Positions 32,000-63,127 of a DNA stretch of 64,000 bases are shown piece after piece (the first letter of the stretch is position 1; each line of letters opens with the position of its first letter). The translations under genes were made by a program, and so were the position numbers. Where the stretch lies: the NCBI RefSeq assembly GCF_011046735.1, contig NZ_CP049258.1:4172001-4236000 (forward strand). The letters run 5' to 3'. Below the pieces are notes generated by a model. The model made no database searches. It was not told the origin of the DNA and saw nothing but the letters and a program-made list of their open reading frames with translations. Origin of the DNA: Nordella sp. HKS 07. Its GTDB lineage: Bacteria; Pseudomonadota; Alphaproteobacteria; Rhizobiales; Aestuariivirgaceae.

Positions 32000-32953
32000 A
32001 TGAGCTGGCCGCACCGTATCTTTGCCGGACAATTCACCGATTTCGAGCTGAAGCTCCTGCGCGTCTTCCGCGCCGTCGCCGATTGCGGTGGCTTCTCGGC
32101 GGCCGAAGCCGAGATCGGCCTCACCAAATCGGCGATCAGCAAGCATGTGAGCGATCTCGAGATTCGTCTCGGTGTCAGGCTGTGCGAGCGCGGCCGCAGC
32201 GGCTTCGCCCTGACCGAGGAGGGCAAAGTCGTCTATGAAGCGATTTCGCAGCTTCTCGTATCGCTTGAGGAATTCCGCTCGCGCATCAACGCCTTCCATT
32301 CCGAACTGATCGGTGAATTCTACATCGGCTTCATCGACACGCTGGTCACCAATGAGACGGCGCCACTGCGTGAGATCCTGTCCGATTATTCCAAGGCCAA
32401 TCCGGCGGTGCGTCTCAACATGATGATCGGCTCGGCAAGCGAGATCGACCGCGCCGTCGATGAGCGGCGGCTTCATATCGGCGTCTCGGTAGCCGACGAG
32501 CGGCCGTCAGGGGCGCTCATCACGCCCTTGGCGGTGGAACGCAGCCTGCTCTATTGCGGCGCAGGCCATGAGGCTTTCGCCCTTTCCGACGCCGACCTGA
32601 CCGATGAGCGCCTCGCGCAGTACAAGCTGGTCCAGCACGGCTATTCGCTGGCCGAGAACCGCGCCTTCGAGGAAATGGGGCTCAAATCCGCCGCCACATC
32701 GCATCAGACCGAGGGCGTGCTCTTCCTGGTGCTCGCCGGCACCCATCTGGGGTTCCTGCCGACACATTATGCCGGCGCCTGGGAAGCACGCGGAATGATC
32801 CGTCCCATCCGTCCGGCAGAGATCGCCAAGGAAACGAAGATCGTCGTCAAGGCGCATCGTGCCTCCCTCGCCAATCCGATGGTGCGCAGCTTCCTGTCGA
32901 TGGTGAAGGCGAGCAAGCCGGAAGCTAAAGCCCGGCCACCGGCCGGCCGATGA
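32000..32953 (+). CDS. LysR-family regulator of cassette A
   Basis: A 317-residue LysR protein with the winged helix LKLLRVFRAVADCGGFSAAE, then LTKSAISKHVSDLEIRLGVR and GFALTEEGKVV, followed by a substrate-binding domain (ELIGEFYIGFIDTLVTNE; HLGFLPTHYA). It is divergent in layout from the metabolic genes, and its last 29 bases overlap the convergent deacylase gene. The cassette B regulator at 57792 has the same unusual N-terminal wording (LLRVF-AV--CGGF-AA), so the two are paralogues. It probably senses the imported compound. Confidence 0.88.
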   Translation: MSWPHRIFAGQFTDFELKLLRVFRAVADCGGFSAAEAEIGLTKSAISKHVSDLEIRLGVRLCERGRSGFALTEEGKVVYEAISQLLVSLEEFRSRINAFHSELIGEFYIGFIDTLVTNETAPLREILSDYSKANPAVRLNMMIGSASEIDRAVDERRLHIGVSVADERPSGALITPLAVERSLLYCGAGHEAFALSDADLTDERLAQYKLVQHGYSLAENRAFEEMGLKSAATSHQTEGVLFLVLAGTHLGFLPTHYAGAWEARGMIRPIRPAEIAKETKIVVKAHRASLANPMVRSFLSMVKASKPEAKARPPAGR

Positions 32954-33926
32954 TATAGAGCCAGTCGCCGGCGGCCGAGCGCGCCAAGGACCGGCACGCC
33001 ATCACCACGCCGCCAGACCGGCTATGAAGAAGCACGGGATCGTCGCCCGGCCGGTCCGGACGATGAAGACGCCCGACCGGGGCACCCGCTTCGATCCGCG
33101 TGCCGAGCAGCGCCAGTGGCTCGAATAGTCCCTCCGTTTGGGCGATCACATAGCAATCATCAAGCCGGACATCGATGAGTTCGGGCTCGACGACTTTGAA
33201 TGGCGAAGCTGACGGTGTAATGCCGAGATGATCGAGGAGGCGCGTGAGCCCCGTCCGGCACAGGTCCAAAGCAACCGGCGTGACTTCCGCCGATCCGCCA
33301 TATTCCCCGCTGATGCCGATGACCTTCCGACGCAGCATCGCCGCATCAATGCCCACCTCGACGCCCATGGTCTTGGCGCCGAACAGCATGCAATGGCGCG
33401 CCCCGAAGGCCCGCGCCAGGTCGAGCCGGCACCGGTCCTCTTCGACTTCACCGGTCACGACGAACAGCGTCGACGGCAGGAAATGCAATATGGCCCCGCC
33501 GCAATGGAAATCGGCGGCATAGTCGGCGCGGCCATAGAGTTCGGACTCAACGAAGAAAGCGAGCCGGCTGGTGAAGGAACCGTCGGCTCGCCCGGGAAAG
33601 GCGCGGTTGAGATTGAGCCCGTCGATGGGGGTACTTCGCACACCTGCTTCACAGGCGGGGCCATTCACCCGCGGGAGGATGATGACCCGGCCCCTGAGGC
33701 TCCCGATGTCTAGGCTTCGCGCCAGCTCCGACAACGCGATCTGGCCTTCATATTCATCGCCATGAACACCCGCGGTGAGAACCAGGGTCGGGCCCTCGCC
33801 TTGCGCCAGGCAGTAGATCGGCGTGGTGATGAGACGCTCCTCGCCATTGGCCAGGAGAGCCGGAAGGCTCACCCGGCCCGATTGCCTGCCAGGCGCATCG
33901 AGATCGATGTCGATGGACGCGCGCAT
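32925..33926 (-). CDS. AstE/AspA-like zinc deacylase of cassette A
   Basis: A 333-residue succinylglutamate desuccinylase/aspartoacylase-family protein. Zinc-ligand block GVHGDEYEG (His about 55, Glu about 58), a substrate-binding NLNRAFPG, and ADFHCGG with the third ligand His are all present. The C-terminal half has a beta-rich domain (VGRLHRPDRPGDDP). The family removes acyl groups from N-acyl amino acids, including N-acetyl-diaminobutyrate in ectoine breakdown (DoeB/EutE). No ectoine partner genes are present here, so the acyl substrate is open. It lies six bases after the PLP enzyme gene. Confidence 0.85.
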   Translation of the reverse strand: MRASIDIDLDAPGRQSGRVSLPALLANGEERLITTPIYCLAQGEGPTLVLTAGVHGDEYEGQIALSELARSLDIGSLRGRVIILPRVNGPACEAGVRSTPIDGLNLNRAFPGRADGSFTSRLAFFVESELYGRADYAADFHCGGAILHFLPSTLFVVTGEVEEDRCRLDLARAFGARHCMLFGAKTMGVEVGIDAAMLRRKVIGISGEYGGSAEVTPVALDLCRTGLTRLLDHLGITPSASPFKVVEPELIDVRLDDCYVIAQTEGLFEPLALLGTRIEAGAPVGRLHRPDRPGDDPVLLHSRSGGVVMACRSLARSAAGDWLYIIGRPVAGL

Positions 33927-33931
33927 CGGGA

Positions 33932-35068
33932 TCAGAGTGCCGCCTTGATCGAGGCGAGGCCGCGATCGATATCATCCGCATTGTTATAGAGATGCGGTGA
34001 GAAGCGGATGAAGTCGCGGCGCAGAGAGGCTATGACATTGTTCTCCTTGAGGGTGCGGGCGAAATCACGGCTGTTCTTGCCGGGAAAGCGCGCCGCGATG
34101 GTGGCCGAGCGCTCCGCCGCCTTCCTGGGCGAGAGGACTTCGGCGCCGAGCGCCTGCAGTCCCGTCATCAGCCGATCGGCGATCACACGGTTATGAGCGT
34201 GGATCTTTTCGATCGAATGCCCGAGCAGGTAGTTCATCGCTTCGGTGGCACCATATGCAGTGCCATAGGCCATGGTACCGAATTCATAGCGCTTCGCCGT
34301 GTCGGGCAGCTCCAGGCGGTCGGCCTGGAAGTCCCACATATTCTTGTGGCTGCGCCAGCCGACAATGCCAGGCCTGAGCTTCTGGAGCGCTTGTGAGACA
34401 TACATGATGCCGGTGCCGAAGGGGCCGCATAGCCATTTGTAGGTCGAGGCCGCCGCGGCGTCGATGCCGGTCGCGGCCACGTCGATCGGTACTTGACCGG
34501 CCGACTGGGTCACGTCGACGACGCAGATGGCGCCGTGCATGTGAGCCTTGGCCGCGAAACGCGCGAGGTCAAAGGTTTGCCCCGTGCCATATTCCACATG
34601 CGAGAGGCAGACGACAGACGTGCTGTCGTCGATCAGGCTCTCGAGATGGTCGGGATCGATGTAAAGATTGTCGGCACGCGCCCAGCGCATCTCTGCGCCG
34701 GTCGTCTCGGCGACCCGCATCCAGGGATAGACGGTGCTCGGATGCGTCGTGTCTGTCGCGACGATAGTCGTGCCCTTGGGCGGCATGACCGCCCAGGCGA
34801 GCGACTGCATCAGTACCGTCTCGCTGGACGCGGTCGCGATATCGCGGACTTGCGCATTGAAGAGGCGGGCCGCCGCGTCGTTCAGATTGTCGAGGCACTC
34901 GACCTCGTCCTGCTCGTCGAAGGCGATTGTGCCTTCGTCGGCGAGCGCCTGTTGCCAGCGGTTGATCGCGGCCGCCGCACCCTTATGGGTGAGGCCGACG
35001 GAAGCCGCGTCCATATAGACGAAGTTCTCGGCGGGCGGAAAGACATCGATGGTGCCAAGGCGTTGCAT
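33932..35068 (-). CDS. Class V aminotransferase-fold PLP enzyme of cassette A
   Basis: A 378-residue fold-type I PLP protein related to cysteine desulfurases, isopenicillin N epimerase and kynureninase. It has VYMDAASVGL at the N-terminus, THPSTVYPW, SHVEYGTGQTFDL, the PLP Asp in CVVDVTQSAGQVPID (about 185) and the Schiff-base Lys in STYKWLCGPFG (about 211). No desulfurase catalytic-Cys loop can be recognised. The neighbours (importer, RidA, two metallohydrolases) suggest a lyase, epimerase or aminotransferase acting on an imported amino compound. Confidence 0.83.
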   Translation of the reverse strand: MQRLGTIDVFPPAENFVYMDAASVGLTHKGAAAAINRWQQALADEGTIAFDEQDEVECLDNLNDAAARLFNAQVRDIATASSETVLMQSLAWAVMPPKGTTIVATDTTHPSTVYPWMRVAETTGAEMRWARADNLYIDPDHLESLIDDSTSVVCLSHVEYGTGQTFDLARFAAKAHMHGAICVVDVTQSAGQVPIDVAATGIDAAAASTYKWLCGPFGTGIMYVSQALQKLRPGIVGWRSHKNMWDFQADRLELPDTAKRYEFGTMAYGTAYGATEAMNYLLGHSIEKIHAHNRVIADRLMTGLQALGAEVLSPRKAAERSATIAARFPGKNSRDFARTLKENNVIASLRRDFIRFSPHLYNNADDIDRGLASIKAAL

Positions 35069-35095
35069 AGTGACCTCTCTCGGTGATGATGGGGA

Positions 35096-35848
35096 TCAGG
35101 TGGTCCGCTGCTGGGGCAGATGACGATGCCATTTGCTTTCCCAGAATTTGAAGCCGCGATTGATGGCGTAGACGAGCGCCATGTAGAGCAGGGCGGCGAC
35201 GATGAAGCCGTCGAAGGCCAGATAGTACTTGTTGTTGAAGAGGCGCGCGGCGCCGAGAATGTCGATGATGGTGACGGTGCTGGCGATGACGGTCGCATGC
35301 AGCGTGAAGATCACTTCATTCGAGAAAGCGGGTAGGGCACGGCGGAATGCATTGGGCAGGATGATGCGTCGATAGAGGATTACGGGACTCATGCCGCAGG
35401 CCTTGGCCGCCTCGATCTCGCCCTTGGGGACAGTCTCGATGGCACCGCGCAGGATCTCGGTAATGTAGGCGGTAGAGCAGAGCGTGAAGGAGATGAAGGC
35501 GCACCACCAGGCCTCGCGCAGGATGTTCCAGAGGAAGGAGTCCCTGATGAAGGAAAATTGCGCGGCGCCATAATAAAGAAGATAGAGCTGCACCAGCAGC
35601 GGCGTGCCACGGAACAGATAGGTGTAAGCGAAGAGAACCGGGTTCACGACCGCCACGCGGCTGGCCCGGGCGATGGCGAGCGGGACGGCGAAGAGGCAGG
35701 CAAGCGCCAGAGGCCCCGCCAGCAGGATGAGCGTATTGCGTACGCCAAGCAGGAACAGGTCCGCATGCTGGGCCGCCAGCATGAAATCGACCGGCGAATA
35801 GGTCTCGCTGAACTCGGTCAGGATATTCAAGAGGTTCTGGCCGCTCAT
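35096..35848 (-). CDS. Polar amino acid-type ABC permease (HisM type), cassette A
   Basis: A 250-residue membrane protein with about five helices. It has the family blocks YLFRGTPLLVQLYLLYYG, TAYITEILRGAIETVPKGEIE and the coupling loop EAAKACGMSPVILYRRIILP. It overlaps the partner permease gene by four bases. It ends 27 bases before the PLP enzyme gene on the same strand. Confidence 0.9.
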   Translation of the reverse strand: MSGQNLLNILTEFSETYSPVDFMLAAQHADLFLLGVRNTLILLAGPLALACLFAVPLAIARASRVAVVNPVLFAYTYLFRGTPLLVQLYLLYYGAAQFSFIRDSFLWNILREAWWCAFISFTLCSTAYITEILRGAIETVPKGEIEAAKACGMSPVILYRRIILPNAFRRALPAFSNEVIFTLHATVIASTVTIIDILGAARLFNNKYYLAFDGFIVAALLYMALVYAINRGFKFWESKWHRHLPQQRTT

Positions 35849-36543
35849 GCCTGCCGCTCCGCTCGGACATGCGCGCTATAGCGCCGGTCGAGCCAGCGAA
35901 GACCCAGATCGGAAATCGCCGTCATGATCAGATAGGTCAGAAGTACGACGAACATGAAGGTGAAGGGCATGCGCGTCGCCTTGCCGGCGGCATAGCCATT
36001 ATAGACGAGGTCTTCGAGGCCGATTACTGAGACAAGCGCCGTCGTCTTCATTAGGGTGAGCCAGATATTGGTGAAACTCGGCAGTGCGTGGCGTACCAGC
36101 TGCGGCCAGATGATCCGGTGGAACAAGGTGAACCGGCTCATGCCACTGGCGAGGCCGGCTTCCACTTGGCCGCGCGGAATGGCGAGCGCGGCGCCTCTGA
36201 ACGTCTCGGTCATATAGGAGCCGAAGATGAAGCCGATGGCGAGCACGCCGGCGGTAAACGCATCGAGCTCGATGTGACGCCAGAGGCCGGTGATGGCGCC
36301 CAGCTTGTTGAGCGCCATCTGGCCGCCGAAATAGAGCAGCAGCATCAAGACGAGGTCGGGCACGCCGCGGATGAGGGTCGTATAGAGTCCGGCAATCCGG
36401 CGCGCCGCGCGCGAGCCTGAGAGTTTGGCCCAGGCGCCGAGCAGTCCGAGGATGACGGCGACCGACAGCGACAGAAGGCTGAGGGCCACCGTAATCCGGA
36501 TGCCGGAGAGGACGAAAGGCGAATATGTGACCACGGCATCCAT
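35845..36543 (-). CDS. Polar amino acid-type ABC permease (HisQ type), cassette A
   Basis: A 232-residue membrane protein with TLIRGVPDLVLMLLLYFGGQ, GSYMTETFRGAALAIPRGQV and the coupling loop EAGLASGMSRFTLFHRIIWP. It forms a heterodimer with the HisM-type protein. It begins 21 bases after the frameshifted binding-protein gene. Confidence 0.9.
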   Translation of the reverse strand: MDAVVTYSPFVLSGIRITVALSLLSLSVAVILGLLGAWAKLSGSRAARRIAGLYTTLIRGVPDLVLMLLLYFGGQMALNKLGAITGLWRHIELDAFTAGVLAIGFIFGSYMTETFRGAALAIPRGQVEAGLASGMSRFTLFHRIIWPQLVRHALPSFTNIWLTLMKTTALVSVIGLEDLVYNGYAAGKATRMPFTFMFVVLLTYLIMTAISDLGLRWLDRRYSAHVRAERQA

Positions 36544-36564
36544 GGATCGAGATCGTCGCAGGAC

Positions 36565-37336
36565 TTATTCGCCGTAGATATCGTACTGGAAGTACTTCTT
36601 CATGATCGCGTCATAGGTGCCGTCGGCACGGAGCTCGGCGATCGCCTTGTTGAACTCGTCGCGCAGCGCCGAGTCTTCCTTGCGCATGCCGATGCCGACG
36701 CCTTCGCCGAAGCATTCGCGGTCAGTGAATATCTCGGAAACGAATTCCATGTCCTTGCCGCGTTCGGTCTTGAGCAGGCCGAAATCGACCCCAATGGAGT
36801 CGGAGAGGATGGCGTCGACGCGGCCCGACCTCGAGGTCGAGATAGAGCGAGTCCGCCGTCTCATAGACGCGCACCGTTGCCTGGGGGAATGCCTTTTCGA
36901 GATAGCATTGGGTGACGCCCGGAATGGTGCCGATCACCTTACCGCCGAGCGCCTTGTCGGCGGTGTCGAGCTTGGTGCCCTTGCGCGACACGAAGACGCC
37001 GCCGGTGTGGTAATATTTGTTGGTGAAATCGATCTTCTTCTTTCTTTCTTCGGTGATCGCCATCGACGCGAAGATGCCATCAAATTTGTTGGCGAGCAGA
37101 CCGGGGATCATGCCGTCCCAATCCTGCGCCTGGAACTCGCATGTGCGCTTGATCTTCGCACACAGCGCCATGCCGAGATCGATCTCGAAGCCCACGAGCG
37201 ACCCGTCCGCAGCGCGCTCATTAAAGGGCGGATAGGCGCCTTCGGTGGCAAAGCGAATAGTTTCATCCGCTTGCACGGAGCTTACGCCCGCCATCAGCAT
37301 GATGGCGCTCGCCAGCATGAGCATGTGTTTCTTCAT
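36565..37336 (-). pseudogene. Amino acid-type substrate-binding protein of cassette A, frameshifted
   Basis: It starts at ATG 37336 with a signal peptide (about 1-23, ending VQA-DETI). The SBP_bac_3 fold follows: IRFATEGAYPPFNERAADG, LVGFEIDLGMALCAKI, WDGMIPGLLANKFDGIFASM. After ETADSLYLDLE the frame is lost. The rest (SGRVDAILSDSIGVDFGLL ... KKYFQYDIYGE) continues in the next frame to TAA at 36565. Removing one C at 36829-36830 joins both parts into a 256-residue protein of normal length. The total of 772 bases is one more than a multiple of three. It is either a true inactivating insertion or a sequencing error. Confidence 0.87.
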
Positions 37337-37365
37337 CGTCCGTCTCCTCCGTTATTAGTTCAGCT

Positions 37366-38175
37366 TCAATGCCGCGCCCGCGCCAGGAAGCGCTCGAAAT
37401 GGGGCGAGGTGGGATTTGTCATCACGCTTTCGGGAGTGCCTTGCTCCTCGATCTCACCTTCGCGCAGGAAGACGACTCGGTTGGACGCCTCCCGGGCGAA
37501 AGCGATCTCATGCGTGACGACGATCATCGTGCGGCCTTCTTCGGCGAGCGCCCGGATGATGTTCAGGACCTCGCCGACGAGCTCTGGATCGAGCGCCGAG
37601 GTCGGCTCGTCGAACAGCATGATCTCGGGCTCCATGGCGAGCGCGCGGGCAATGGCGCCGCGTTGCTGCTGTCCGCCCGACAGGAAAGCCGGATAATAGG
37701 TCTTGCGGTCATTGAGCCCGACCTTGGCGAGAAGCGCCTCGGCCCGTTCGATGGCTTCCTTGCGGCCGAGGCCCAGGACATGGATGGGCCCCTCGATGAC
37801 ATTCTCGAGCAGTGTCATATGGGACCACAGGTTGAAGCTCTGGAAGACCATGGCCAGTCGGGCGCGCATCGCTTCGATCTGCCTGCGGTCCGCCGGCTCC
37901 TGCTGGCCAGTGGATGACGCCCTTGTCCGGATCGTCTCGCCGTTGAGGGCGATGGTGCCCTGGCTTGGCGTTTCGAGGAAGTTGATGCAGCGCAGGAAGG
38001 TGCTCTTGCCCGAGCCGCTGGCGCCCAGAATGGCGATGACGTCGTGCTGATGGGCATCGAGCGAGACGCCCTTGAGGACCTCAAGCGCTCCGAAGGATTT
38101 GTGCAGGTCTCGGATCTCGAGTTTGGCCCGACCTTGCCCCGGTTCCGTCTGGTTGTGATCGAACACGTCCCGCAT
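37366..38175 (-). CDS. Polar amino acid-type ABC ATPase (HisP type), cassette A
   Basis: A 269-residue ATPase with Walker A GASGSGKST, a Q-loop in MVFQSFNLWSHMTLLENV, signature LSGGQQQRGAIARALA, Walker B IMLFDEPTSALDPE and the switch VVTHEIAFAREAS. ATG 38175 is used; a GTG at 38184 is possible and neither has a well-spaced ribosome site. It is first in the ABC part of the cassette A operon and divergent from the RidA gene. Confidence 0.9.
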   Translation of the reverse strand: MRDVFDHNQTEPGQGRAKLEIRDLHKSFGALEVLKGVSLDAHQHDVIAILGASGSGKSTFLRCINFLETPSQGTIALNGETIRTRASSTGQQEPADRRQIEAMRARLAMVFQSFNLWSHMTLLENVIEGPIHVLGLGRKEAIERAEALLAKVGLNDRKTYYPAFLSGGQQQRGAIARALAMEPEIMLFDEPTSALDPELVGEVLNIIRALAEEGRTMIVVTHEIAFAREASNRVVFLREGEIEEQGTPESVMTNPTSPHFERFLARARH

Positions 38176-38323
38176 GCCTTCCACGTAAAGTCGGGAGTAT
38201 GCTCGGCCGGGACGGGGCGCCGGTCGTTCGCAAAACCGTCAACTGAAGTTTCCTCAAATGAGAGCTTTCCGGGGACCGGCCTGAGAGACTGTGCGGCCAT
38301 CAATCACGCGAAGAGGAGCGATC

Positions 38324-38698
38324 ATGGTCAAGCACGTCATTTCGGGTCCGGGCATGGAGGGGCTGCCTCTATCGGAAGCGGTCCGCGCCGGCGATTTCAT
38401 CTTCATCTCCGGCATGGTCGGCTTTGGTCCAGATGGCCGGATCGTCGAGGGCGGTGTCGCCGCCGAGACCGACCGCATCATGGCCGATGCCGCTGATCTC
38501 CTGAAACGTGCCGGCGCTTCGCTGGCCGACATTGTCAAGGTAAGCATCTGCCTGACGGACGCCAATGACTTCGCCGCCTTCAACGAAGCATACGCCAGGT
38601 ACTTCCGCAAGGATCCGCCGGCGCGTGTCAGCCTGGTGGCCGACCTCACCATCGATGCGCGTGTGGAAATGGATTTCGTCGCCTATACTGGAAAATAA
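38324..38698 (+). CDS. RidA-family enamine/imine deaminase, cassette A
   Basis: A 124-residue YjgF/YER057c/UK114 protein. It has EGLPLSEAVRAGDFIFISG at the N-terminus, the GGVAAET block, the conserved Arg in DPPARVSLV (about 101) and ARVEMDFVAY near the end. RidA proteins hydrolyse reactive 2-aminoacrylate-type enamines or imines made by PLP enzymes, which suits the class V enzyme in this cassette. AGAGGAG at 38311-38317 sets the start. Its stop overlaps the start of the M20 gene by one base. The cassette B protein at 61079 aligns to it without gaps in the core. Confidence 0.9.
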   Translation: MVKHVISGPGMEGLPLSEAVRAGDFIFISGMVGFGPDGRIVEGGVAAETDRIMADAADLLKRAGASLADIVKVSICLTDANDFAAFNEAYARYFRKDPPARVSLVADLTIDARVEMDFVAYTGK

Positions 38699-54292: not shown

Positions 54293-55072
54293 ATGTCCGG
54301 TGACATCGAAAACGGTGCCGTCTATCCGAGCCTGAAGGAGCGCAGCGTTTTCATCACCGGCGGCGGCAGCGGCATCGGCGAAAGCCTGGTCGAGCATTTC
54401 TGCGAGCAAGGAAGCCGTGTCGCCTTTATCGATCTGGCCGAGGATGCCTCGCGACGCCTGGTCGCTCGAATCGCCGCCAAGGGCGATCCCGCCCCGCATT
54501 TCATGCAAGGAGACTTGCGCGACATCGAACGCCTGCGCGCCGCGATCGCCGAGGCGGCGGATCGCAACGGCCCGGTCAAGGTCCTGTGCAACAATGCCGG
54601 CAATGACGATCGGCATAAGAGCGAGGATGTGACCGTCGACTATTGGGACGACCGCATGGCGGTGAATGTCCGGCACCAGTTCTTTGCCGCCCAGGCGGTG
54701 CGGCCGCAAATGAAGAAAGCCGGCGGCGGCTCGATCATCAATTTCGGCTCCATCACCTGGCTGGTCGGTGATGGCGATTGCCCGGGCTATGTCACCGCCA
54801 AGGCGGCGATCACCGGCATGACGCGGGCGCTGGCCCGGGAATTCGGCCCCGATCGCATCCGAGTCAACTGCATGCTGCCCGGCTGGGTCATGACCGAGCG
54901 CCAGATGCGCCTGTGGCTGACGCCCGAAGGCGAACGCCAGATCGCCGAGCGCCAATGCCTGCCGGACCGCCTCTATCCGCCCGACATCGCGCGCATGGCC
55001 TTGTTCCTCGCCGCCGATGACAGCCGCATGTGTTCGTCGCAGAACTTCATCGTCGATGGCGGATGGGTCTGA
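54293..55072 (+). CDS. SDR sugar 1-dehydrogenase, Caulobacter XylB-like
   Basis: A 259-residue SDR with FITGGGSGIGESLVEHF, LCNNAGNDDRHKSEDVT, NFGSITWLVG with the catalytic Ser, YVTAK (Tyr and Lys) and VDGGWV at the end. NNAGNDDRHK and the VYPSLKERSVFITGGGSGIG start strongly recall D-xylose 1-dehydrogenase XylB of Caulobacter, as I remember it. It oxidises an aldose to the lactone, feeding the dehydratase upstream. No lactonase is encoded here; the lactone may open on its own or by an enzyme encoded elsewhere. GAGG precedes ATG 54293. Confidence 0.87.
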   Translation: MSGDIENGAVYPSLKERSVFITGGGSGIGESLVEHFCEQGSRVAFIDLAEDASRRLVARIAAKGDPAPHFMQGDLRDIERLRAAIAEAADRNGPVKVLCNNAGNDDRHKSEDVTVDYWDDRMAVNVRHQFFAAQAVRPQMKKAGGGSIINFGSITWLVGDGDCPGYVTAKAAITGMTRALAREFGPDRIRVNCMLPGWVMTERQMRLWLTPEGERQIAERQCLPDRLYPPDIARMALFLAADDSRMCSSQNFIVDGGWV

Positions 55073-55156
55073 GACGGCCTCGTCCAATTAGGACATTCTC
55101 TTCATCTGCCCGCTTCTGCTATTTCTGGGGGGATCCACTAGGAATCGAGCAAGCCG

Positions 55157-56347: not shown

Positions 56348-56370
56348 TCATTACATCATCCACCCGTACT

Positions 56371-56516
56371 TTCCCCTTCTCCCGCGCGCAGCGTGGGAGA
56401 AGGTGCCCGATAGGGCGGATGAGGGCTCTCTAGTGAGAGCGGCGGAACGTTCTTAGAGCCCTCACCCGGCCTTCGGCCACCCTCTCCCATTGCTCCGCAA
56501 CGGGAGAGGGGGAAAT
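56371..56516. repeat. Palindromic mosaic repeat between converging genes
   Basis: TTCCCCTTCTCCC at the left pairs with GGGAGAGGGGGAA at the right. GATGAGGGCTCT and AGAGCCCTCA pair in the middle, and CACCCTCTCCC with GGGAGAGGG forms a local stem. It has the same design as the element at 16301-16493. It lies between the M20 stop and the SelA-like gene's stop, where it can act as a two-way terminator. Confidence 0.75.
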
Positions 56517-56529
56517 ATTGGGGACAGTT

Positions 56530-57687
56530 CTAGAGGGACAATAGGGCCCGCACCCGCGCGCCGATATGAGCGACCTCGTCATCGGCGAGCACATCCATGA
56601 CGAAGCCGATTTTGTCGCCCTCCTGTATGGCGAGGATTGAGGGGTTCTCCTCTTCGAGCGCGCGCGAGATCTCGCCGGCGGACTTCACCGCCGCTTTCTC
56701 GAAGGTCACCAGCAGGCAATTGACCGGCGCGTCGATGAAGCGCTCGTCCATGGTGAAGCATTTGGGCTCGAGCTTGAGACCTTTGAGGCTGGAGAGCTGT
56801 TCCTTCAGCATCGCGACTTGCTGCTCATAGTGCGCGAAGCGCGCCGCGTGATCCATTGACAGCCATTCCTCCAGCGCCACCAGAACCGCGATCACTGTCT
56901 GCCGGTCCATCTTGAGGGGGCGGCCGAGCTTCAGATACCTGCCGGATTCATAGCGGGTGAAATGCACGTTGCTCACCGCCTCGATAAGGTCTCGCCGGCC
57001 CAATATGAAGCCGCCGGCATTGGGACCGCCGAAATATTTTGCGCTGATGCAGACGAGATCGGCGCCGCGGCGCATGAAGTCGCCCATGACCTGGGTCGGA
57101 TAGTTGAGATAGGCGGCATCGACGATCACCGGAACGCCGCGCGCCTTGGCGATCCGGACGACCTCCTCGAGAGCGAGCGTGCCGGGCTTGCCGTCGAGAT
57201 GGGCGGGGTGGAGGATGGCGGCGGTATCCTTGCCGATCGCCGCTTCGAGCTGATCGGCGCGTGTACCGTTCTTCGAGCCCACTTCAATGAGCCTCGCGCC
57301 GGTCATGCCGACCTGGCGGTCGTATTTGTAGCGATGGCCGGCCTGGATCAGGACTTCGCTCTTCATGCCGGCCGTGTCGGGAAGCTGCTGCGATTTCTCG
57401 CCGTCCGTGCCGGCGAGGCAGGCGGCGGCGCCGAGGAAGATCGCGGCAGCGGCACCCGGCGTGATGCGCGCCGCCTCGACGCCGAGGAGATCGGCGATGC
57501 GCTCACCGGTCTTGTCGAGAAGCTCCGTCATGCGCACGAACTGTCCGTTGAACGTTTCCGCCGCCGCCCATACGCCGGGGCTGAGCCGTGACCCGCCGAG
57601 ATCGGTATAAATACCGCAGGCATTGATCACCGGCCTGATGGCGAGGCGGTCGAAAAAGTCACTTCCGGTCTTCCGGGTTGTTGGCAT
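56530..57687 (-). CDS. SelA/DgaE-like PLP-dependent lyase, cassette B
   Basis: A 385-residue fold-type I PLP enzyme of the SelA-like group that includes D-glucosaminate-6-phosphate ammonia-lyase (DgaE). It has FFDRLAIRPVINACGIYTDL (typical N-terminus), ITPGAAAAIFLGAAACLAG, the PLP Asp in PVIVDAAYLNYP (about 190) and the Schiff-base Lys in ISAKYFGGPNAG (about 217). Such enzymes eliminate ammonia and water from 2-amino-3-hydroxy acids or aminosugar acids to form 2-keto-3-deoxy acids. It is divergent from the cassette B LysR gene. ATG 57687 is used; ATG 57699 is possible. Confidence 0.85.
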   Translation of the reverse strand: MPTTRKTGSDFFDRLAIRPVINACGIYTDLGGSRLSPGVWAAAETFNGQFVRMTELLDKTGERIADLLGVEAARITPGAAAAIFLGAAACLAGTDGEKSQQLPDTAGMKSEVLIQAGHRYKYDRQVGMTGARLIEVGSKNGTRADQLEAAIGKDTAAILHPAHLDGKPGTLALEEVVRIAKARGVPVIVDAAYLNYPTQVMGDFMRRGADLVCISAKYFGGPNAGGFILGRRDLIEAVSNVHFTRYESGRYLKLGRPLKMDRQTVIAVLVALEEWLSMDHAARFAHYEQQVAMLKEQLSSLKGLKLEPKCFTMDERFIDAPVNCLLVTFEKAAVKSAGEISRALEEENPSILAIQEGDKIGFVMDVLADDEVAHIGARVRALLSL

Positions 57688-57791
57688 GGCCGATCTCATA
57701 GTAGTTGACGTAGAGCCGGCAGAATGTGGTTTTGCCGCGGATCAAACATCGAAAACTGCCGAGGTAAACCTCGTGCGATCGGAGAGGGAAG

Positions 57792-58709
57792 ATGCTGGGA
57801 CGGGTGAGCGACGCCGATTTGCGTCTGTTGCGGGTCTTCGCCGCGGTGGTCGAATGCGGCGGGTTTGCCGCAGCCCAGGCGCTGCTGAATGTTTCCGAAT
57901 CCACCATCAGCACCCATATGCATGATCTCGAGACACGCCTGGGTCTGCGCCTGTGTCAGCGCGGGCGCGGCGGCTTCCGGCTGACCGAGGATGGCGAGGC
58001 GGTCTCCCGCGCCGCCGGCGAGCTCTTCGCCTCGCTCGACCGCTTTCAGACCAAGATCGCCACGCGCAAGCGGCAGTTGAACGGGCCACTGGTCATCGGC
58101 ATGCCGGACAATATCATCACCCATCCGGAGTTCCCGCTCTCCGCTGCCCTCGACCGCTTTTATGGCCGTGAGAATGCGGTGCATGTGACGGTGGAAGTCC
58201 TGACCCCGCGTGATCTCGAGCGCGGCGTTCTCGATGGAAAATTGCATCTGGCCATCGCGCCGCGCCATCAGCGGGTGGCGGGATTGCGCTATGAGAAGCT
58301 TCTGTCCGAGATCAATTACTTCTATTGCGGCCGCAAGCACCCGCTCTTCACCCAGACCAGCCGCAAACCATCACTGGCGGAAATCGCCGGCGCCGGGCTC
58401 ATCAGCCGCGGCTATCTCTCCAATTTCGATCAGCGCTTCTTCAAGGATGCGCCGCATCACGCCACCGTTTACAGCATGGAGGCCTCGGCGCTCCTGATCC
58501 TGTCTGGCCGTTTCGGCGGCTTCCTGCCGTCCTATTATGCCCAGCGCTGGGTGGCCGCCGGCGAGATGAGGCCGCTGCGCCCCGATATCCTGGCCTATTC
58601 GCCGGACTTCTTCACCGTCACGCGCAAGGGTGCCGAACTGAGCCTTGCCGCCAAGACTTTCCAAGGCGATCTGCGGGCCGCTTCGGCCGAAATGAAGAAA
58701 GGCAAATAG
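57792..58709 (+). CDS. LysR-family regulator of cassette B
   Basis: A 305-residue LysR protein. Its winged helix reads LRLLRVFAAVVECGGFAAAQ, then LNVSESTISTHMHDLETRLG and RLCQRGRGGFRLTEDGEAV. The sensor domain contains NGPLVIGMPDNIITHPEFPL and SGRFGGFLPSYYAQRW. Wording and spacing parallel the cassette A regulator at 32000 (for example GFLPTHYA against GFLPSYYA). GGAGAGGGAAG precedes the ATG. It lies between the PLP gene on one side and the transport genes on the other, and likely controls both. Confidence 0.9.
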   Translation: MLGRVSDADLRLLRVFAAVVECGGFAAAQALLNVSESTISTHMHDLETRLGLRLCQRGRGGFRLTEDGEAVSRAAGELFASLDRFQTKIATRKRQLNGPLVIGMPDNIITHPEFPLSAALDRFYGRENAVHVTVEVLTPRDLERGVLDGKLHLAIAPRHQRVAGLRYEKLLSEINYFYCGRKHPLFTQTSRKPSLAEIAGAGLISRGYLSNFDQRFFKDAPHHATVYSMEASALLILSGRFGGFLPSYYAQRWVAAGEMRPLRPDILAYSPDFFTVTRKGAELSLAAKTFQGDLRAASAEMKKGK

Positions 58710-58838
58710 ACTGATCGCCCGCGCTTGCTTCGACGGGCGTCGAACCAAACTTCCGCAACTGCTCATATTAACCAGGACCGGTCATCTGGTTTCGTTCGGG
58801 TGTATCGACAAGAAGATCAAGCAATGGGGAGACAAGAT

Positions 58839-59621
58839 ATGCCGGGAATGAAACATCTCGCTTTGGCAGCGGTACTTCTGGCGGCCACCTCGCTCCAGGC
58901 GCTGGCGCAGGAGAAAATCACGGTGGCGACGGAAGCCTCCTTCCCGCCCTTCTCCAAGACGGAAGCCGATGGAACCTATTCGGGCTTCGAGATCGACCTC
59001 GGCAATGAGGTCTGCAAGCGGGCCGGGCTCGATTGCGAATGGGTCAAGCAGGATTTCGACGGCATGATCGCGGCACTGCTCGCCCGTAAATTCAACATGG
59101 TCTTCTCCTCCATGTCGATCAAGCCGGAGCGCGAGAAGGTCGCCGATTTCTCCATTCCCTATTACGCCACCAAATTCGTCTTCTACGGCAAGAAGGGCGC
59201 CTTCAAGGACTTCGCCGCCGATATCAAGGGCAAGCGGGTCGGGGTCTATGCCGGCGCCACACAGGATCAGTATGTCCGCAAGTTCCATGCCGGCGAGCTC
59301 GAGCCGGTGGGTTATGAGAATGCCGACCAGATCCATGCGGATCTCGTGAATGGCCGCATCGATCTCGCTTTCGGCGAGCAATTGCCGGCCAACGAGTTTC
59401 TTGCCTCGCCGCAGGGCCAGGATTTCGAGGTGGCGGGACCGATCATCGATAATCCGGAAGTGCTGGGCCGCGGCGTCGGCGCGATGTTCGCCAAGGGCGA
59501 TCCCTTGAAGGCGAAGGTCGACGAGGCGATCCGCGCGATCTATGCCGATGGCACATTCGACAAGATCGAGCAGAAATGGGTCCCCGGCGCCGATATCCGC
59601 GCCGACAAGCTCTGGCGGTAA
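58839..59621 (+). CDS. Amino acid-type substrate-binding protein of cassette B
   Basis: A 260-residue protein with a signal peptide (about 1-24, ending ALA-QEKI). An SBP_bac_3 fold follows: ITVATEASFPPFSKTEADGT, GFEIDLGNEVCKRAGLDCEW, FDGMIAALLARKFNMVFSSM. The paralogous cassette A protein has the same words (WDGMIPGLLANKFDGIFASM), so the two importers probably take related ligands. Two Cys (CKRAGLDC) are also found in the A copy (CAKIKRTC). ATG 58839 was chosen for its spacing from GGGGAG at 58826-58831; ATG 58824 and 58848 are alternatives. Confidence 0.9.
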   Translation: MPGMKHLALAAVLLAATSLQALAQEKITVATEASFPPFSKTEADGTYSGFEIDLGNEVCKRAGLDCEWVKQDFDGMIAALLARKFNMVFSSMSIKPEREKVADFSIPYYATKFVFYGKKGAFKDFAADIKGKRVGVYAGATQDQYVRKFHAGELEPVGYENADQIHADLVNGRIDLAFGEQLPANEFLASPQGQDFEVAGPIIDNPEVLGRGVGAMFAKGDPLKAKVDEAIRAIYADGTFDKIEQKWVPGADIRADKLWR

Positions 59622-59652
59622 TGCGGATCTGGGGGAGCGCTGTCAGTAGAGC

Positions 59653-60369
59653 ATGGACTGGTCTCTGTTTCTGCCGGGAGCCACGGGCTGGGGAGATGAA
59701 CTCCTCGCCGGCCTGTGGCTGACGCTCAGGCTCGGCCTGACCTCGGTCCTGCTTGGTACTTTTCTCGGCCTTGTCGCGGCACTGGGGGAACTCTCCCGCT
59801 TCCGCGTCCTCGCGCGTGCTCTCACCGCCTATAATGTCGTGATGCGCAGCGTGCCGGAGCTCCTGGTCATCCTGCTGCTCTATTATGGCCTTGCCTTCCT
59901 CCTTATGGCGCTGCTGCGGCCCTTCGGCATCACGAGCTTCATCGAGGTGAGCCCCTTCTGGGCGGGCACGCTGGCCCTCAGCCTCATCCACGCGGCCTAT
60001 GCGAGCGAAGTGTTCCGTGGCGCCTTCCAGGCGATCCCCAAGGGCCAGATCGAAGCCGGCCAGGCTTTCGGCATGAGCCGCTTTCTGGTGTTCCGGCGTA
60101 TCAAATGGCCGGTGGCCTTCCGTCTGTCGCTCGCCGCTCTCGCCAATCTCTTGATGACGACCTTCAAGAACACGCCGTTTGTCTCCGCCATCGGGCTCCA
60201 GGATCTCATCCGTGCCGCCGGCGATGCCGGCCAGAACACCAAGCTCTATTTCCAGTTCTTCATCGCCTCGCTGGCGATTTACCTGATCATCGCCGCGCTG
60301 ATGCAGATCGTCCAGGTGAAGGCCGAGACCTCGCTCTATGCCCATCTGCGGCGCGGATCGTCGTCATGA
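59653..60369 (+). CDS. Polar amino acid-type ABC permease (HisQ type), cassette B
   Basis: A 238-residue membrane protein with VMRSVPELLVILLLYYGLAF, AAYASEVFRGAFQAIPKGQI and the coupling loop EAGQAFGMSRFLVFRRIKWP. It overlaps the partner permease gene by ATGA. No ATPase gene is found in this cassette. Confidence 0.9.
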   Translation: MDWSLFLPGATGWGDELLAGLWLTLRLGLTSVLLGTFLGLVAALGELSRFRVLARALTAYNVVMRSVPELLVILLLYYGLAFLLMALLRPFGITSFIEVSPFWAGTLALSLIHAAYASEVFRGAFQAIPKGQIEAGQAFGMSRFLVFRRIKWPVAFRLSLAALANLLMTTFKNTPFVSAIGLQDLIRAAGDAGQNTKLYFQFFIASLAIYLIIAALMQIVQVKAETSLYAHLRRGSSS

Positions 60370-61076
60370 TGCTCGACTGGGAAACCTTCGTCACTTATGT
60401 GCCCTTGCTGATCCAAGGCGCGGTGACGACGATCGAGCTCACTATGCTGGTCGCCTTGTTCGGCTTCCTCATCGCGCTGCCGGTGGCGCTCGCCCGCAAT
60501 TCGGCATCGCGGGCGGCGAGAGCATTCGCCCAGAGCTTCATCTTCTTCTTTCGCGGCGCGCCCATCCTGGCGGTGCTCTTCCTCCTTTATTACGGACTGC
60601 CGCAGATACCCGGCATCAAGGAGAGCATCCTATGGCACCTGATCGCGCGACCGATGCCGATCGCCGTCCTGGCGCTGTCGCTCAATTCCGCCGGCTTCCT
60701 GGCCGAGATCTTCGCCATCGCCTTGCGCAATGTGGCGGTGGGCGACATCGAGGCGGCGCGCGCCTTCGGATTCGGCCGGGTGCAGACCTTCTTCCGCTTC
60801 GCATTGCCGGGGGCGGCGCGGCTCTGCATCCGCGCCTATGGCAATGAGTTGGTCTTCGTCCTCAAAGGCACGGCCGCGGTCAATTTCATCACCATCACCG
60901 ACCTCATCGGCGCCGCCAATCAGATCTATTTCAACACTTTCGATCCCATCACGCCGCTTCTCGTCGCGGGCGCGATCTATCTCGTCTTTGCACTCCTCAT
61001 CGTCACTTGTATACGCGGGATGGAGCGCCGTCTCTCGCCATGGCTATTTATCGAGACAAAACTGAAGGAAACGTGA
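60366..61076 (+). CDS. Polar amino acid-type ABC permease (HisM type), cassette B
   Basis: A 236-residue membrane protein with FIFFFRGAPILAVLFLLYYG, AGFLAEIFAIALRNVAVGDI and the coupling loop EAARAFGFGRVQTFFRFALP. The loop EAARAFGFG requires a HisP-type ATPase partner, which the cassette lacks; the A cassette ATPase (37366-38175) or an unlinked one may serve. The RidA gene begins two bases after its stop. Confidence 0.9.
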   Translation: MMLDWETFVTYVPLLIQGAVTTIELTMLVALFGFLIALPVALARNSASRAARAFAQSFIFFFRGAPILAVLFLLYYGLPQIPGIKESILWHLIARPMPIAVLALSLNSAGFLAEIFAIALRNVAVGDIEAARAFGFGRVQTFFRFALPGAARLCIRAYGNELVFVLKGTAAVNFITITDLIGAANQIYFNTFDPITPLLVAGAIYLVFALLIVTCIRGMERRLSPWLFIETKLKET

Positions 61077-61078
61077 TC

Positions 61079-61453
61079 ATGAAGCGCCAGACATTCACCT
61101 TGGACAATGCGGAGGGCCTGCCGCTCTCGGATGCGGTGCGCTTCGGCGACATCATCTTCGTTTCCGGCATGGTCGCCTTCGACGACAAGGGGAAAATCGT
61201 CAAAGGCGGCATCGCCGCCGAGACCCGCCAGACCTTCAGGAATATCGAACGCGTCCTCGAGAAGGCCGGCGCCTCGCTGGCCGATGTGCTCAAGGTCAAT
61301 ATCATCCTCACCCATGCCGAGGACTTCGACGCCTTCAATGTTGCCTATCGCGCGCTCTTCCCGAAATCCCCGCCGGCGCGTATTTCCATGGTGGCGGGCC
61401 TCACCATCGAGGCCAGGCTCGAGGTCGACGTCATTGCGGGAGTGAGTTCATGA
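61079..61453 (+). CDS. RidA-family enamine/imine deaminase, cassette B
   Basis: A 124-residue protein with AEGLPLSDAVRFGDIIFVSG, KGGIAAETRQTFRNIERVLE, the conserved Arg in SPPARISMV (about 101) and ARLEVDVIA at the end. It has the same length and Arg position as the A cassette protein and aligns without gaps, so they are paralogues. It should quench the enamine/imine released by the SelA-like lyase. GAAGGAA lies upstream of the ATG. It overlaps the aldolase gene by four bases. Confidence 0.9.
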   Translation: MKRQTFTLDNAEGLPLSDAVRFGDIIFVSGMVAFDDKGKIVKGGIAAETRQTFRNIERVLEKAGASLADVLKVNIILTHAEDFDAFNVAYRALFPKSPPARISMVAGLTIEARLEVDVIAGVSS

Positions 61454-62154
61454 AGCGCGCCTTCTGGCTGCAGACCAACAATCAGCAGGCTTGCGAGATC
61501 GCGCGTCTCGCCGGCTACGACATGGTGGTGTTCGATGGCGAGCATGGCGTCTTCGATGTGGCAGCCCTCGACCGGCTGGTGCCGTTCTGCGCCGGGATCG
61601 GCCTCGAGCCCTTCGTGCGGGTCGGCGAGGCCAGCCGGCCGCAGATCCAGGCGGCGCTCGATATGGGCGCCGTGGGCGTCATCCTTCCGCAGATCGAGGG
61701 CCTCGATCACGCGGCGCGTGTCACCGCTTTCGCCAAATATCCCCCGCTCGGCTCGCGTGGCATCGGCTATAGCCGGACCATGAACTACGACGGCGTCGGC
61801 CCCGATTACATTACGGCCGAGAACGCCAGACGCCTGTGCTATGCGATGATCGAGACGCCGGGTGCATTCGCCGCCATGGAAGAGATCGCCGCCTTGCCTT
61901 GCGTCGACGGGCTTTTCATCGGCCCCGGCGACCTGTCGCTGACCCGCGGCCGCGGCCTTTTCGCAGATACGGCGGCGGACGCGGCCGACCTGAAGCAAGT
62001 GGCGGAGACCGCGCGCAAGGCGGGGAAGCTCTTCGCCGCCGCGGGGCCGACCCGGAACTATTCCAAGCTGGCGGCCGGTCTCGGCGCCAGCTTCGTCACC
62101 GAGGGCGATGAGCTGACCGCCATGATGATCGGCTTCAAGTCCTTGCTGAGTTGA
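61450..62154 (+). CDS. HpcH/HpaI-family aldolase
   Basis: A 234-residue protein of the class II pyruvate-aldolase family. It has GYDMVVFDGEHGVFDV with the catalytic His, GVILPQIEG, the metal Glu in AMIETPGAF and the metal Asp in GLFIGPGDLSLT. These enzymes split 4-hydroxy-2-oxo acids into pyruvate and an aldehyde. Translation is coupled to RidA (ATGA). A SelA-like ammonia-lyase followed by an aldolase recalls the DgaE/DgaF pair of glucosaminate breakdown. Its last 20 bases overlap the convergent deacylase gene. Confidence 0.88.
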   Translation: MKRAFWLQTNNQQACEIARLAGYDMVVFDGEHGVFDVAALDRLVPFCAGIGLEPFVRVGEASRPQIQAALDMGAVGVILPQIEGLDHAARVTAFAKYPPLGSRGIGYSRTMNYDGVGPDYITAENARRLCYAMIETPGAFAAMEEIAALPCVDGLFIGPGDLSLTRGRGLFADTAADAADLKQVAETARKAGKLFAAAGPTRNYSKLAAGLGASFVTEGDELTAMMIGFKSLLS

Positions 62155-63127
62155 TATTGTCGGCCAGATAGAACACCGCATTGCCGGCCTGCTGCCGGCC
62201 CTGGCTCGCCACCGCGACGACCACGCCGAAGGTCGGCGCGTGGATCGGTTCGGCGTCGTTACGGCCTTCTATGTGACCGAGGAGATCGCCTTGCCGGACC
62301 TCCGTGCCGAGATCGACCATAGGCGCGAAGCAGCCGCTGGTCCTGATTGTCACATGATGTTCCGGCCGGCCGAGGAAAAGCAGCTGTGACCGGCTCTGCG
62401 CGGGAGGTGTCGCCTGGTCGCCAGGGACGACGCCGATGAAGCTCAGGAGATTGCGCAAGCCGCGCTCGGCGACGGCGAGCGATTGCGCGCTTACGCGGCC
62501 CGCTCCGCCGAGCTCGGAGGAAATCGCCTTTTTGCCGAGTGCCCGCGCCGCACCCTCCAACGTGCCGCCATGCGGCATATGAGGCGAGGAGGGGACCTCG
62601 TCGAATACGATTGCATAGGGTGCGTCGAAGGCGAGGAGCGGCGCCAGCATGGCGTTGTATTCGGGCGAGGGGAAGCGCGCCTGCACATTGGAGCTCAGCA
62701 CGAATTCATGTGCGTCGCCGCCCGAATGGAGGTCGATCACCCAGTCGACGTGGGGGAGGAGCATCTCTTCGACGAAACCGGCGATGCTCTGCGCGGGCCC
62801 TGAGCCCTTCGGCCGACCATAGAGACGGTTGAGATCGCTGCTGTCGCCAGGGGTGAGCCGCGTGCCGGCCCGGCAGGCAAGGACATTGTGGAAGGGCATG
62901 AGGATGAGCGTGCCCTGGATCTCACCGGCATCGATCGTACGGGCGAGGCGGGTCACGGCGATCTGGCCTTCGAACTCATCGCCATGAGTGCCGCCCACCG
63001 CGAGTACGGCGGGGCCGTCGCCGCGCCGGACAACGGTCAGCGGCAGCGTCAGGTCTTGCGCGAGACGGATATCGAGCCGCCGCGTGCCGGCTTGAGTGAG
63101 ATCGAGCTGATACGGGGAAATATCCAT
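62135..63127 (-). CDS. AstE/AspA-like zinc deacylase of cassette B
   Basis: A 330-residue protein of the succinylglutamate desuccinylase/aspartoacylase family. Zinc-ligand block GGTHGDEFEG (His about 48, Glu about 51), DLNRLYGRPKGS for substrate carboxylate binding, and WVIDLHSGGDAHEF with the third ligand His are all present. It ends with a small beta domain (TFGVVVAVASQGRQQAGN). It parallels the A cassette deacylase at 32925. In both cassettes this gene overlaps a neighbour tail-to-tail. It should remove an acyl group before the PLP step. Confidence 0.87.
   Translation of the reverse strand: MDISPYQLDLTQAGTRRLDIRLAQDLTLPLTVVRRGDGPAVLAVGGTHGDEFEGQIAVTRLARTIDAGEIQGTLILMPFHNVLACRAGTRLTPGDSSDLNRLYGRPKGSGPAQSIAGFVEEMLLPHVDWVIDLHSGGDAHEFVLSSNVQARFPSPEYNAMLAPLLAFDAPYAIVFDEVPSSPHMPHGGTLEGAARALGKKAISSELGGAGRVSAQSLAVAERGLRNLLSFIGVVPGDQATPPAQSRSQLLFLGRPEHHVTIRTSGCFAPMVDLGTEVRQGDLLGHIEGRNDAEPIHAPTFGVVVAVASQGRQQAGNAVFYLADNINSART

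Follow-up and report, generated by a model that had tools for sequence, protein, structure and literature searches.

Two linked cassettes of mosaic make-up in Nordella sp. HKS 07 and their possible role in the catabolism of an N-substituted amino acid

The window analysed here, 64,000 nucleotides long, covers positions 4172001-4236000 of the single 7.18-Mb contig of Nordella sp. HKS 07 and holds two gene clusters of similar content, cassette A (32000-39945) and cassette B (55157-63127), each with an importer, hydrolases and an enzyme that depends on pyridoxal phosphate (PLP). The question that this locus raises is whether the cassettes are copies of one operon that serve two related compounds, as a preliminary description had it, or parts of one system, and which compound is degraded. 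We favour, at about even confidence, the reading that A and B, as linked operons, belong to a single network which degrades an N-substituted amino acid after its import; the compound is most likely basic and carries a guanidino, ureido or acylated amino group in its side chain. This proposal starts from four observations: the gene content, the synteny, a common RidA clade, and a Roseovarius genome in which relatives of the two PLP enzymes are encoded side by side.

Gene families were assigned with Pfam and NCBIfam models, which bore out the families and coordinates of the preliminary description, and A was compared with B by BLASTP. Cassette A encodes a LysR regulator, an AstE-like hydrolase, a class V PLP enzyme, two His-type permeases, a binding protein, a HisP-type ATPase, RidA and an M20 protein; cassette B encodes an M20 protein, a SelA-like PLP enzyme, a LysR regulator, a binding protein, two permeases, RidA, an HpcH aldolase and an AstE-like hydrolase:

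32000-32953, plus strand: A, LysR regulator (PF00126 and PF03466)
32925-33926, minus strand: A, AstE/AspA (DoeB-like) metallo-hydrolase (PF24827, 99 bits; DoeB model, 195.7 bits, below the cut-off of 402.7)
33932-35068, minus strand: A, class V fold-type I PLP enzyme, probable lyase (PF00266, 161.5 bits)
35096-35848, minus strand: A, HisM-type permease (PF00528; HisM model, 205.5 bits, below the cut-off of 306)
35845-36543, minus strand: A, HisQ-type permease (PF00528; HisQ model, 231.1 bits, below the cut-off of 319)
36568-37336, minus strand: A, amino-acid binding protein, frameshifted (two frames match the intact 256-amino acid (aa) protein of relatives)
37366-38184, minus strand: A, HisP-type ABC ATPase (HisP model, 364.3 bits, below the cut-off of 466)
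38324-38698, plus strand: A, RidA-family protein, predicted imine/enamine deaminase (PF01042, 85 bits)
38698-39945, plus strand: A, M20 amidase of the hydantoinase/carbamoylase type (TIGR01879, 337.8 bits, above the cut-off of 204)
55157-56347, plus strand: B, M20 deacylase nearer ArgE/DapE (PF01546 and PF07687; TIGR01910, 182.1 bits, below the cut-off of 217.6)
56530-57699, minus strand: B, SelA/DgaE-like fold-type I PLP enzyme, probable ammonia-lyase (TIGR01437, 171.1 bits, below the cut-off of 385.3)
57792-58709, plus strand: B, LysR regulator of the same subfamily as that of A
58725-59621, plus strand: B, amino-acid binding protein, family 3 (PF00497, 127.5 bits; real start probably at about 58824-58845)
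59653-60369, plus strand: B, HisQ-type permease (PF00528; HisQ, 150.3 bits, below the cut-off)
60366-61076, plus strand: B, ArtM/HisM-type permease (ArtM, 141 bits, below the cut-off; scanned as 60360-61076)
61079-61453, plus strand: B, RidA-family protein (TIGR00004, 79.6 bits, below the cut-off of 106.25)
61450-62154, plus strand: B, HpcH/HpaI-type aldolase (PF03328, 88.3 bits, above the gathering score of 25; HpaI, 109.3 bits, and GarL, 103.2 bits, both below their cut-offs)
62135-63127, minus strand: B, AstE/AspA (DoeB-like) metallo-hydrolase (PF24827, 121.6 bits; DoeB, 173 bits, below the cut-off)

The RidA of A also stays below the TIGR00004 cut-off (89 bits). The closest PDB sequences of the M20 protein of A are N-carbamoyl-L-amino acid hydrolase and allantoate amidohydrolase; that of B scores to TIGR01892 (189 bits), again short of the cut-off, as well as to TIGR01910. 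The additional aldolase of B was correctly recognised before. The transport genes had been described as a binding protein and two permeases per cassette, which holds, but the HisP-type ATPase of A and the frameshift in its binding protein had been overlooked. All genes of A and B are full-length open frames except for this one, in which the frame changes near 36826-36832; its open reading frame (256 aa) is intact in two genomes of the same genus, G001 and G003, and cassette A may be partly broken in this isolate through the frameshift. The ATPase of A has no match at an E-value of 0.001 within 48000-64000, leaving B without a HisP-type ATPase; an ATPase-like match of 36-37% lies past the end of B here and in G003 (L039 1197-1778, L047 1367-1984), beside a separate permease gene at 63307.

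Are the cassettes linked by more than chance? Of four genomes of the genus that were searched, two, G001 and G003, have A and B in identical order, with about 75-94% protein identity per gene, and since this order is kept, the linkage is more than chance. Among 60 relatives including the own genome, the PLP enzyme of A occurs at 87% identity or more in three and that of B in three. At E 1e-60 the B enzyme was found in one of 385 genomes of the class, the own genome, and at E 1e-100 the A enzyme was found in two of 394 genomes of the family of Roseovarius albus, R. albus included. The full gene set was seen only in three genomes of one genus, while sub-sets recur in Mesorhizobium, Rhodobacteraceae and other Alphaproteobacteria. 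In G003, a third cassette adjoins A and comprises a second LysR of the same subfamily, four genes that, by reading, look like a PotABCD-type importer and two creatininase-family genes (one of the two confirmed by Pfam). Its importer and creatininase genes are present in G001 at 97-100%, and the second LysR of either genome matches LysR-B at 40%. What is left of it in the window is the following:

31701-31925, minus strand: third-cassette remnants, comprising a creatininase-family gene (3' end only) and a fragment of the spacer that separates the second LysR from the PotABCD-like genes

The creatininase remnant extends over 31701-31913 by tblastn (62%, residues 192-259 of 259) and over 31708-31828 by blastn, and the intergenic scrap over about 31833-31925, with blastn matches to L049 at 88% and 81%; the importer of the third cassette matches only other genes of the window, at 24-48%. 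Because only scraps remain here and G001 and G003 keep the cassette, the common ancestor probably had three such cassettes, of which this lineage lost one.

Next to linkage stands the question of common descent, A and B having been taken for a simple paralogous pair. The similarity reported for RidA (54% over 126 aa), the binding proteins (43% over 151 aa) and LysR (33% over 302 aa) was reproduced and extends to the permeases (40% and 34%) and the AstE-like proteins (32% over 301 aa). The PLP enzymes, rightly placed in different subfamilies, gave no BLAST match to each other at E 0.01, and neither did the M20 proteins, so that the two cassettes share RidA, LysR, binding protein, permeases and AstE as families but M20 and PLP enzymes at the superfamily level only. 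The own genome has 13 RidA-family matches including A, of which A and B are mutually nearest (54%, next 42%). In a tree of 28 rows, from which two over-long and two long-branched rows were omitted (an earlier tree omitted two over-long rows), A, B and the RidAs encoded beside A-type enzymes in Mesorhizobium and two alphaproteobacterial metagenome-assembled genomes (MAGs) form a clade of nine with a support of 99/97, separate from the RidAs of other SelA-like modules. LysR-B, on the other hand, has five paralogs in the own genome at 37-42%, all closer than LysR-A at 33%, and LysR-A belongs to a nine-row clade (SH-aLRT 98, quick tree) drawn entirely from loci that encode an A-type PLP enzyme. 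Among the eight own-genome matches of AstE-A, with AstE-A itself first, AstE-B ranks fifth; the best paralogs sit elsewhere, and three of the others were found in other contexts by reading of their surroundings. A and B are therefore nearest kin in RidA but not in LysR or AstE, and simple duplication of one cassette was rejected on the latter two and kept for RidA. Because the LysRs are not sisters and the AstEs are not nearest paralogs, the cassettes appear to be a mosaic of shared parts and not one duplicated operon. Judged by the condition that the preliminary description set for its own refutation, trees and co-occurrence together give a mixed outcome.

What do the two PLP enzymes do? In the enzyme of A, K211 and R355 are invariant in 17 rows. 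Its closest solved sequences are cysteine desulfurases, followed by cystine lyases and kynureninase, and its model (mean pLDDT 76.8) has SufS-type proteins as best fold matches. The SufS model gives 133.4 bits (cut-off 475.1), cysteines are present at 58, 154, 182 and 214 only, and because the catalytic cysteine of the C-terminal loop is absent after residue 214, an identity as cysteine desulfurase or selenocysteine lyase was rejected. Canavanine gamma-lyase was considered as a further candidate. The usual substrates of enzymes of this group are beta-substituted alanines, and beta-elimination would fit as the chemistry of the A enzyme.

An A-type enzyme of at least 68% identity is encoded at 14 loci, in this genome, G001, G003, Roseovarius albus, Oricola indica, Ruegeria halocynthiae, a Rhodobacteraceae MAG, three Mesorhizobium (one on a plasmid), two alphaproteobacterial MAGs, a Rhodospirillales MAG at a contig edge and G484; several of these loci end at contig edges, which makes absences soft. 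Its neighbours are a LysR of the subfamily (10 of 14), RidA (8), a His-type importer (8), OCD (6), a hydantoinase-type M20 protein (6), AstE (5, that of Ruegeria partial), an arginase-family protein (3, two by Pfam and one by similarity), a GntC/VioD-like PLP enzyme (3, one scanned and two 89-92% identical to it), a sulfatase (2) and an ADI/amidinotransferase-type protein (1). The SelA-like gene is directly beside the A-type gene in one locus and within about 31 kb in three more. The ADI-type protein of G484 (24.3 bits, cut-off 22.8) shares 61% identity with genes of two loci in which a subfamily LysR and creatininase occur together; arginine:glycine and inosamine-phosphate amidinotransferases are among its closest PDB sequences. 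The GntC/VioD-like protein of Mesorhizobium scores 252 bits to GntC and 224 to VioD (cut-offs 415 and 390.9) and keeps the residues aligned with GntC E9, S25, K219 and R346, whose roles were taken from an extract of PMC10367076. Since the pocket residues N52 and H250 are not kept, and its best PDB match, the aminotransferase-family entry 3op7, also keeps E9 and S25, hydroxyarginine chemistry is no more than a lead.

More distant relatives of the A enzyme (44-54%) were found at 12 of 23 loci; in five neighbourhoods that were read, two share a 488-489 aa gene and otherwise nothing is common. These proteins (L068 5881-7347, gammaproteobacterial, and L069 5247-6716, from an Anaerolineae MAG) gave one weak class V match (21.3 bits, cut-off 21.5). 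In metagenome assemblies the A-type enzyme or its relatives can be split across two frames (L065 10001-11130, L071 10001-11136, L077-L079), which may be assembly error or decay. The sulfatase genes near the A-type enzyme (L178 2334-3761 and L065 1078-2676) are 43% identical to each other.

The link between the two enzymes is most direct in Roseovarius albus (L062), where a SelA-like gene (8631-9755, 60% to B) directly precedes an A-type class V gene (10001-11128, 75%), which is followed by a proline-racemase-family gene. Because the relatives are adjacent there, two PLP enzymes need not mean two branches, and the earlier idea of separate branches for two compounds is not required. In the B enzyme K221 and R235 are conserved and align with Lys and Arg at 213 and 226 of the PDB chain of DGL (own numbering); an extract of PMC9529869 names Lys-217 as the PLP lysine and Arg-226 as the carboxylate arginine. 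Leu168 of a His167-Leu168 pair, which is also present in G001, G003 and Roseovarius, aligns with the proton donor His163 of DGL, the register being set by a one-residue gap. According to the same extract (PMC9529869) the H163A variant of DGL releases the enamine, and such a release would give the co-encoded RidA a purpose; a transient near 293 nm is reported for this variant. The missing histidine cannot be the sole reason for a RidA beside the B enzyme, since RidA neighbours are also found for rhizobial SelA-like proteins in which the two histidines are retained. The AlphaFold model of the B enzyme is poor (mean pLDDT 56.1), and some motif positions were located with strings taken from these very proteins, which makes them no independent test of activity.

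The substrate class was approached through the regulators. A profile of seven LysRs, applied at E 1e-60 with at most seven candidates scored per genome, detected the subfamily in 24 of 289 genomes of the class. Outside the own genome, 32 regions cover 33 of 37 places, the four in G319 and G221 (same genus as G092) being left out. They were compared with 32 hand-picked LysR places from the same or related genomes, mostly the best among the matches listed and with some near contig ends skipped; all controls fall outside the subfamily (at most 95 bits, members at least 248). An arginase-family gene lies within 8 kb at 15 of the 32 subfamily loci and at none of the 32 controls (p 3.5e-6); the loci are not independent, several coming from one genus, and counted by taxonomic family the ratio is 9/18 to 0/16 (p 0.0009). 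Arginase, creatininase or ADI families together are present at 20 of the 32 alphaproteobacterial loci versus none of the controls (p 1.2e-8), two ADI matches having been checked with Pfam. RidA, AstE, OCD and SelA-like genes are not enriched near the subfamily LysRs (0-1 of 32). From this alphaproteobacterial context we lean towards a guanidino or ureido amino acid as substrate, and within the Alphaproteobacteria the subfamily is a usable marker of guanidino-handling loci.

The own genome has five more LysRs of the subfamily in four places (G000:C1 1398001-1418000, 3422001-3442000, 3386001-3406000 and 1333001-1353000; L102-L105), with arginase-family genes at two, a carbamoylase-type M20 gene at one and amino-acid-type importers at two. 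Two further clusters, L109 and L110, combine a subfamily LysR with creatininase-family, amidohydrolase-like, BMP-type ABC importer and amidinotransferase-like genes (partly by reading).

Taken together, the favoured network, in which every reaction and the substrate class are predicted, would run as follows. HisJQMP-type importers would take up the compound, B probably borrowing the ATPase of A or another one, as only A encodes a HisP-type ATPase. The carbamoylase-type M20 and the AstE-type metallo-hydrolases would remove ureido or acyl groups; the class V enzyme of A would eliminate a beta or gamma substituent and the SelA-like enzyme of B a beta-hydroxyl, and the enamine or imine formed by each would be converted to a 2-oxo acid by the RidA of its own cassette. 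The HpcH aldolase of B would then cleave a 4-hydroxy-2-oxo acid to pyruvate and an aldehyde, and both cassettes would be controlled by LysRs of one subfamily. The sequence of import, deacylation, PLP-dependent elimination and imine hydrolysis proposed before is still what the gene families most naturally suggest, and A and B are joined in the RidA tree, but the simple paralogous pair for which the scheme was worded is not supported. An unlikely, more specific form of the network is one pathway for a hydroxylated or cyclised arginine-like amino acid, in which the class V enzyme without the catalytic cysteine and then the SelA-like enzyme without the protective proton-donor histidine would each hand an enamine to the dedicated RidA clade, and HpcH would yield pyruvate and a guanidino-aldehyde.

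Several findings weigh against the network or its guanidino lean. ADI/DDAH alone (4/32 versus 0, p 0.057) and creatininase alone (3/32 versus 0, p 0.12) do not differ significantly from the controls, there is no arginase-family gene within A or B, and the GntC/VioD-like gene of Mesorhizobium, in which GntC N52 and H250 are not kept, is absent from both cassettes. When 20 of the places in other classes (L189-L208) were compared with 20 regions elsewhere in 14 of those genomes (not LysR loci), guanidino-acting families were found at two loci versus none (p 0.24), and a universal guanidino meaning of the subfamily was rejected. According to a reading of the genes, 13 of the other 18 loci adjoin class III aminotransferase or semialdehyde dehydrogenase-like genes of the beta-alanine/gamma-aminobutyric acid type, and one (L202) lies beside histidine-degradation genes; since the other-class loci mostly adjoin such aminotransferase/dehydrogenase-like genes, the comparison suggests that the subfamily stands more broadly for omega-amino or guanidino acids. 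Beyond the genus, the link between A and B rests on one genome: a B-type enzyme at 60% was found in one of eight A-enzyme genomes searched, Roseovarius albus, and the other seven have relatives at 38-39% (three) or none at E 1e-20 (four). All four genomes with a B-type enzyme of at least 60%, three of the same genus and Roseovarius, also hold the A type, a count that is biased because Roseovarius was reached through the A enzyme. The LysR beside the Roseovarius pair (L062 7899-8597) is truncated, its open frame showing the effector-binding domain (PF03466) with no DNA-binding half seen, and LysR-A and LysR-B, although of one subfamily, are not sisters in the tree. Finally, of all the cassette proteins it is only the M20 protein of A that exceeds the cut-off of a specific NCBIfam model (TIGR01879, for a subfamily), and the permeases pass just the general domain model TIGR01726.

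The alternative that survives best, which we consider rather doubtful, is that of two independent neighbouring pathways, A for an N-carbamoyl or N-acyl amino acid and B for an N-acylated 2-amino-2-deoxy-aldonic acid (N-acetylglucosaminate-like); in B, AstE or M20 would deacylate, the SelA-like enzyme and RidA would form a 2-keto-3-deoxy acid and HpcH would split it to pyruvate and an aldehyde. Indeed, SelA-like and RidA modules occur without A-type genes, on Aureimonas pAU20c with an annotated amidohydrolase/deacetylase, in Mesorhizobium (L179 and L180) with amino-acid importers and in G002 (L058, whose RidA is row L026_1010 of the tree). The M20 protein of B is deacetylase-like, and HpcH together with a SelA-like enzyme would suit a sugar acid equally well, which also counts against the network. 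A similar logic is described in extracts on the ong cluster for N-acetylglucosaminate (PMC9537276) and on DgaE/DgaF, which do likewise with glucosaminate-6-phosphate (PMC9529869). Against independence, RidA-B falls into the clade of the A-type RidAs and apart from those of the independent SelA modules, LysR-B belongs to the subfamily tied to amino and guanidino compounds, and relatives of both PLP enzymes are adjacent in Roseovarius. It is improbable that the locus is a decaying island in which A no longer works and the present function is that of B alone plus leftovers: the binding protein of A is frameshifted, an entire third cassette was deleted with scars left, and an IS110-type insertion is not found in the syntenic stretch of either relative, but the other genes of A are all full-length open frames, a lone frameshift in one assembly could be a sequencing error, and the ATPase of A may serve B. 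A variant of ectoine/hydroxyectoine degradation (DoeB-like AstE, EhuABCD-like importer, EutC-like OCD in relatives) is very improbable and was rejected on scores and missing genes: DoeB is the best-scoring model for both AstEs (195.7 and 173 bits), components of the importer give scores to Ehu models and the OCD proteins of relatives to EutC (287.1 and 288.6 bits), but all these scores are short of the cut-offs (402.7, 471.65), the importer parts score higher to His/Arg-type models, the Pfam scan of the cassette proteins found no M24 (DoeA-type) family, the regulator is a LysR and not EnuR, and the ectoine pathway is not known to include a PLP enzyme of the class V or SelA-like type.

The IS110-type transposase gene (41516-42532; PF01548 and PF02371) lies within 41257-42557, an interval that finds no match in the syntenic regions of the two relatives. 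The interval between the cassettes (43478-55072), largely syntenic in both relatives, encodes a sugar-type ABC importer, an IlvD/Edd-type dehydratase (52495-54279) and an SDR protein (350 bits to the D-xylose 1-dehydrogenase model, cut-off 400), and looks like a pentose catabolism region judged by these families.

For the favoured network, A and B give candidates for two PLP lyases tied to a small, co-travelling RidA clade, and the enamine partners of RidA in catabolism become directly testable; should the network reading be wrong, the loci would still show clearly how catabolic operons are put together as mosaics of shared parts.

How do the cassettes compare with known systems? No description of their gene set was found among the matches listed in open-licence PubMed Central text, which is not proof of absence. 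Ectoine utilisation (eut/doe, ehu) resembles them in the DoeB-like AstE, the His-type importer and, in relatives, the EutC-like OCD, whereas A and B have no DoeA-type gene, another regulator, other PLP enzymes and scores below the cut-offs. In Pseudomonas aeruginosa, gbuR is adjacent to gbuA, and GpuR/gpuA is a comparable pair. GbuR, a LysR protein, regulates gbuA according to an extract of PMC10926688; the likeness lies in the type of regulator, there controlling an arginase-family ureohydrolase, whereas A and B have no ureohydrolase. The ong cluster of Pseudoalteromonas, as described in the extract of PMC9537276, is like B in having an importer, a deacetylase, a PLP lyase, RidA and an entry into 2-keto-3-deoxy acid metabolism, but differs by a fold-type III PLP enzyme (OngC), a D-aminoacylase-like deacetylase, a kinase and outer-membrane transporters, in place of the SelA-like enzyme, AstE/M20 and HpcH of B; neither a D-aminoacylase-type deacetylase nor a KDG kinase was among the families of the B proteins scanned. 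DGL (DgaE/DgaF) shares with B a SelA-like fold-type I lyase followed by an aldolase, but B scores 144.5 bits to it (cut-off 600), lacks the equivalent of His163 in two alignments and has an HpcH-type aldolase and an ABC importer; with the family score far short of the cut-off, phosphorylated glucosaminate was not favoured as substrate of B. A Mesorhizobium plasmid island (MesoLj113b3 264366-278231, L033) has no AstE and no ATPase among the genes listed, adds OCD and the GntC/VioD-like PLP enzyme, and shares the A-type PLP enzyme (69%), RidA (58%), the importer (60-64%), LysR (50%) and M20 (35%). Catabolic operons made of an importer, a PLP lyase and RidA are thus of a known kind; new here are the apparent mosaic origin, the Roseovarius link, the probable deletion of a third cassette, the frameshift and the lean towards guanidino compounds within the Alphaproteobacteria.

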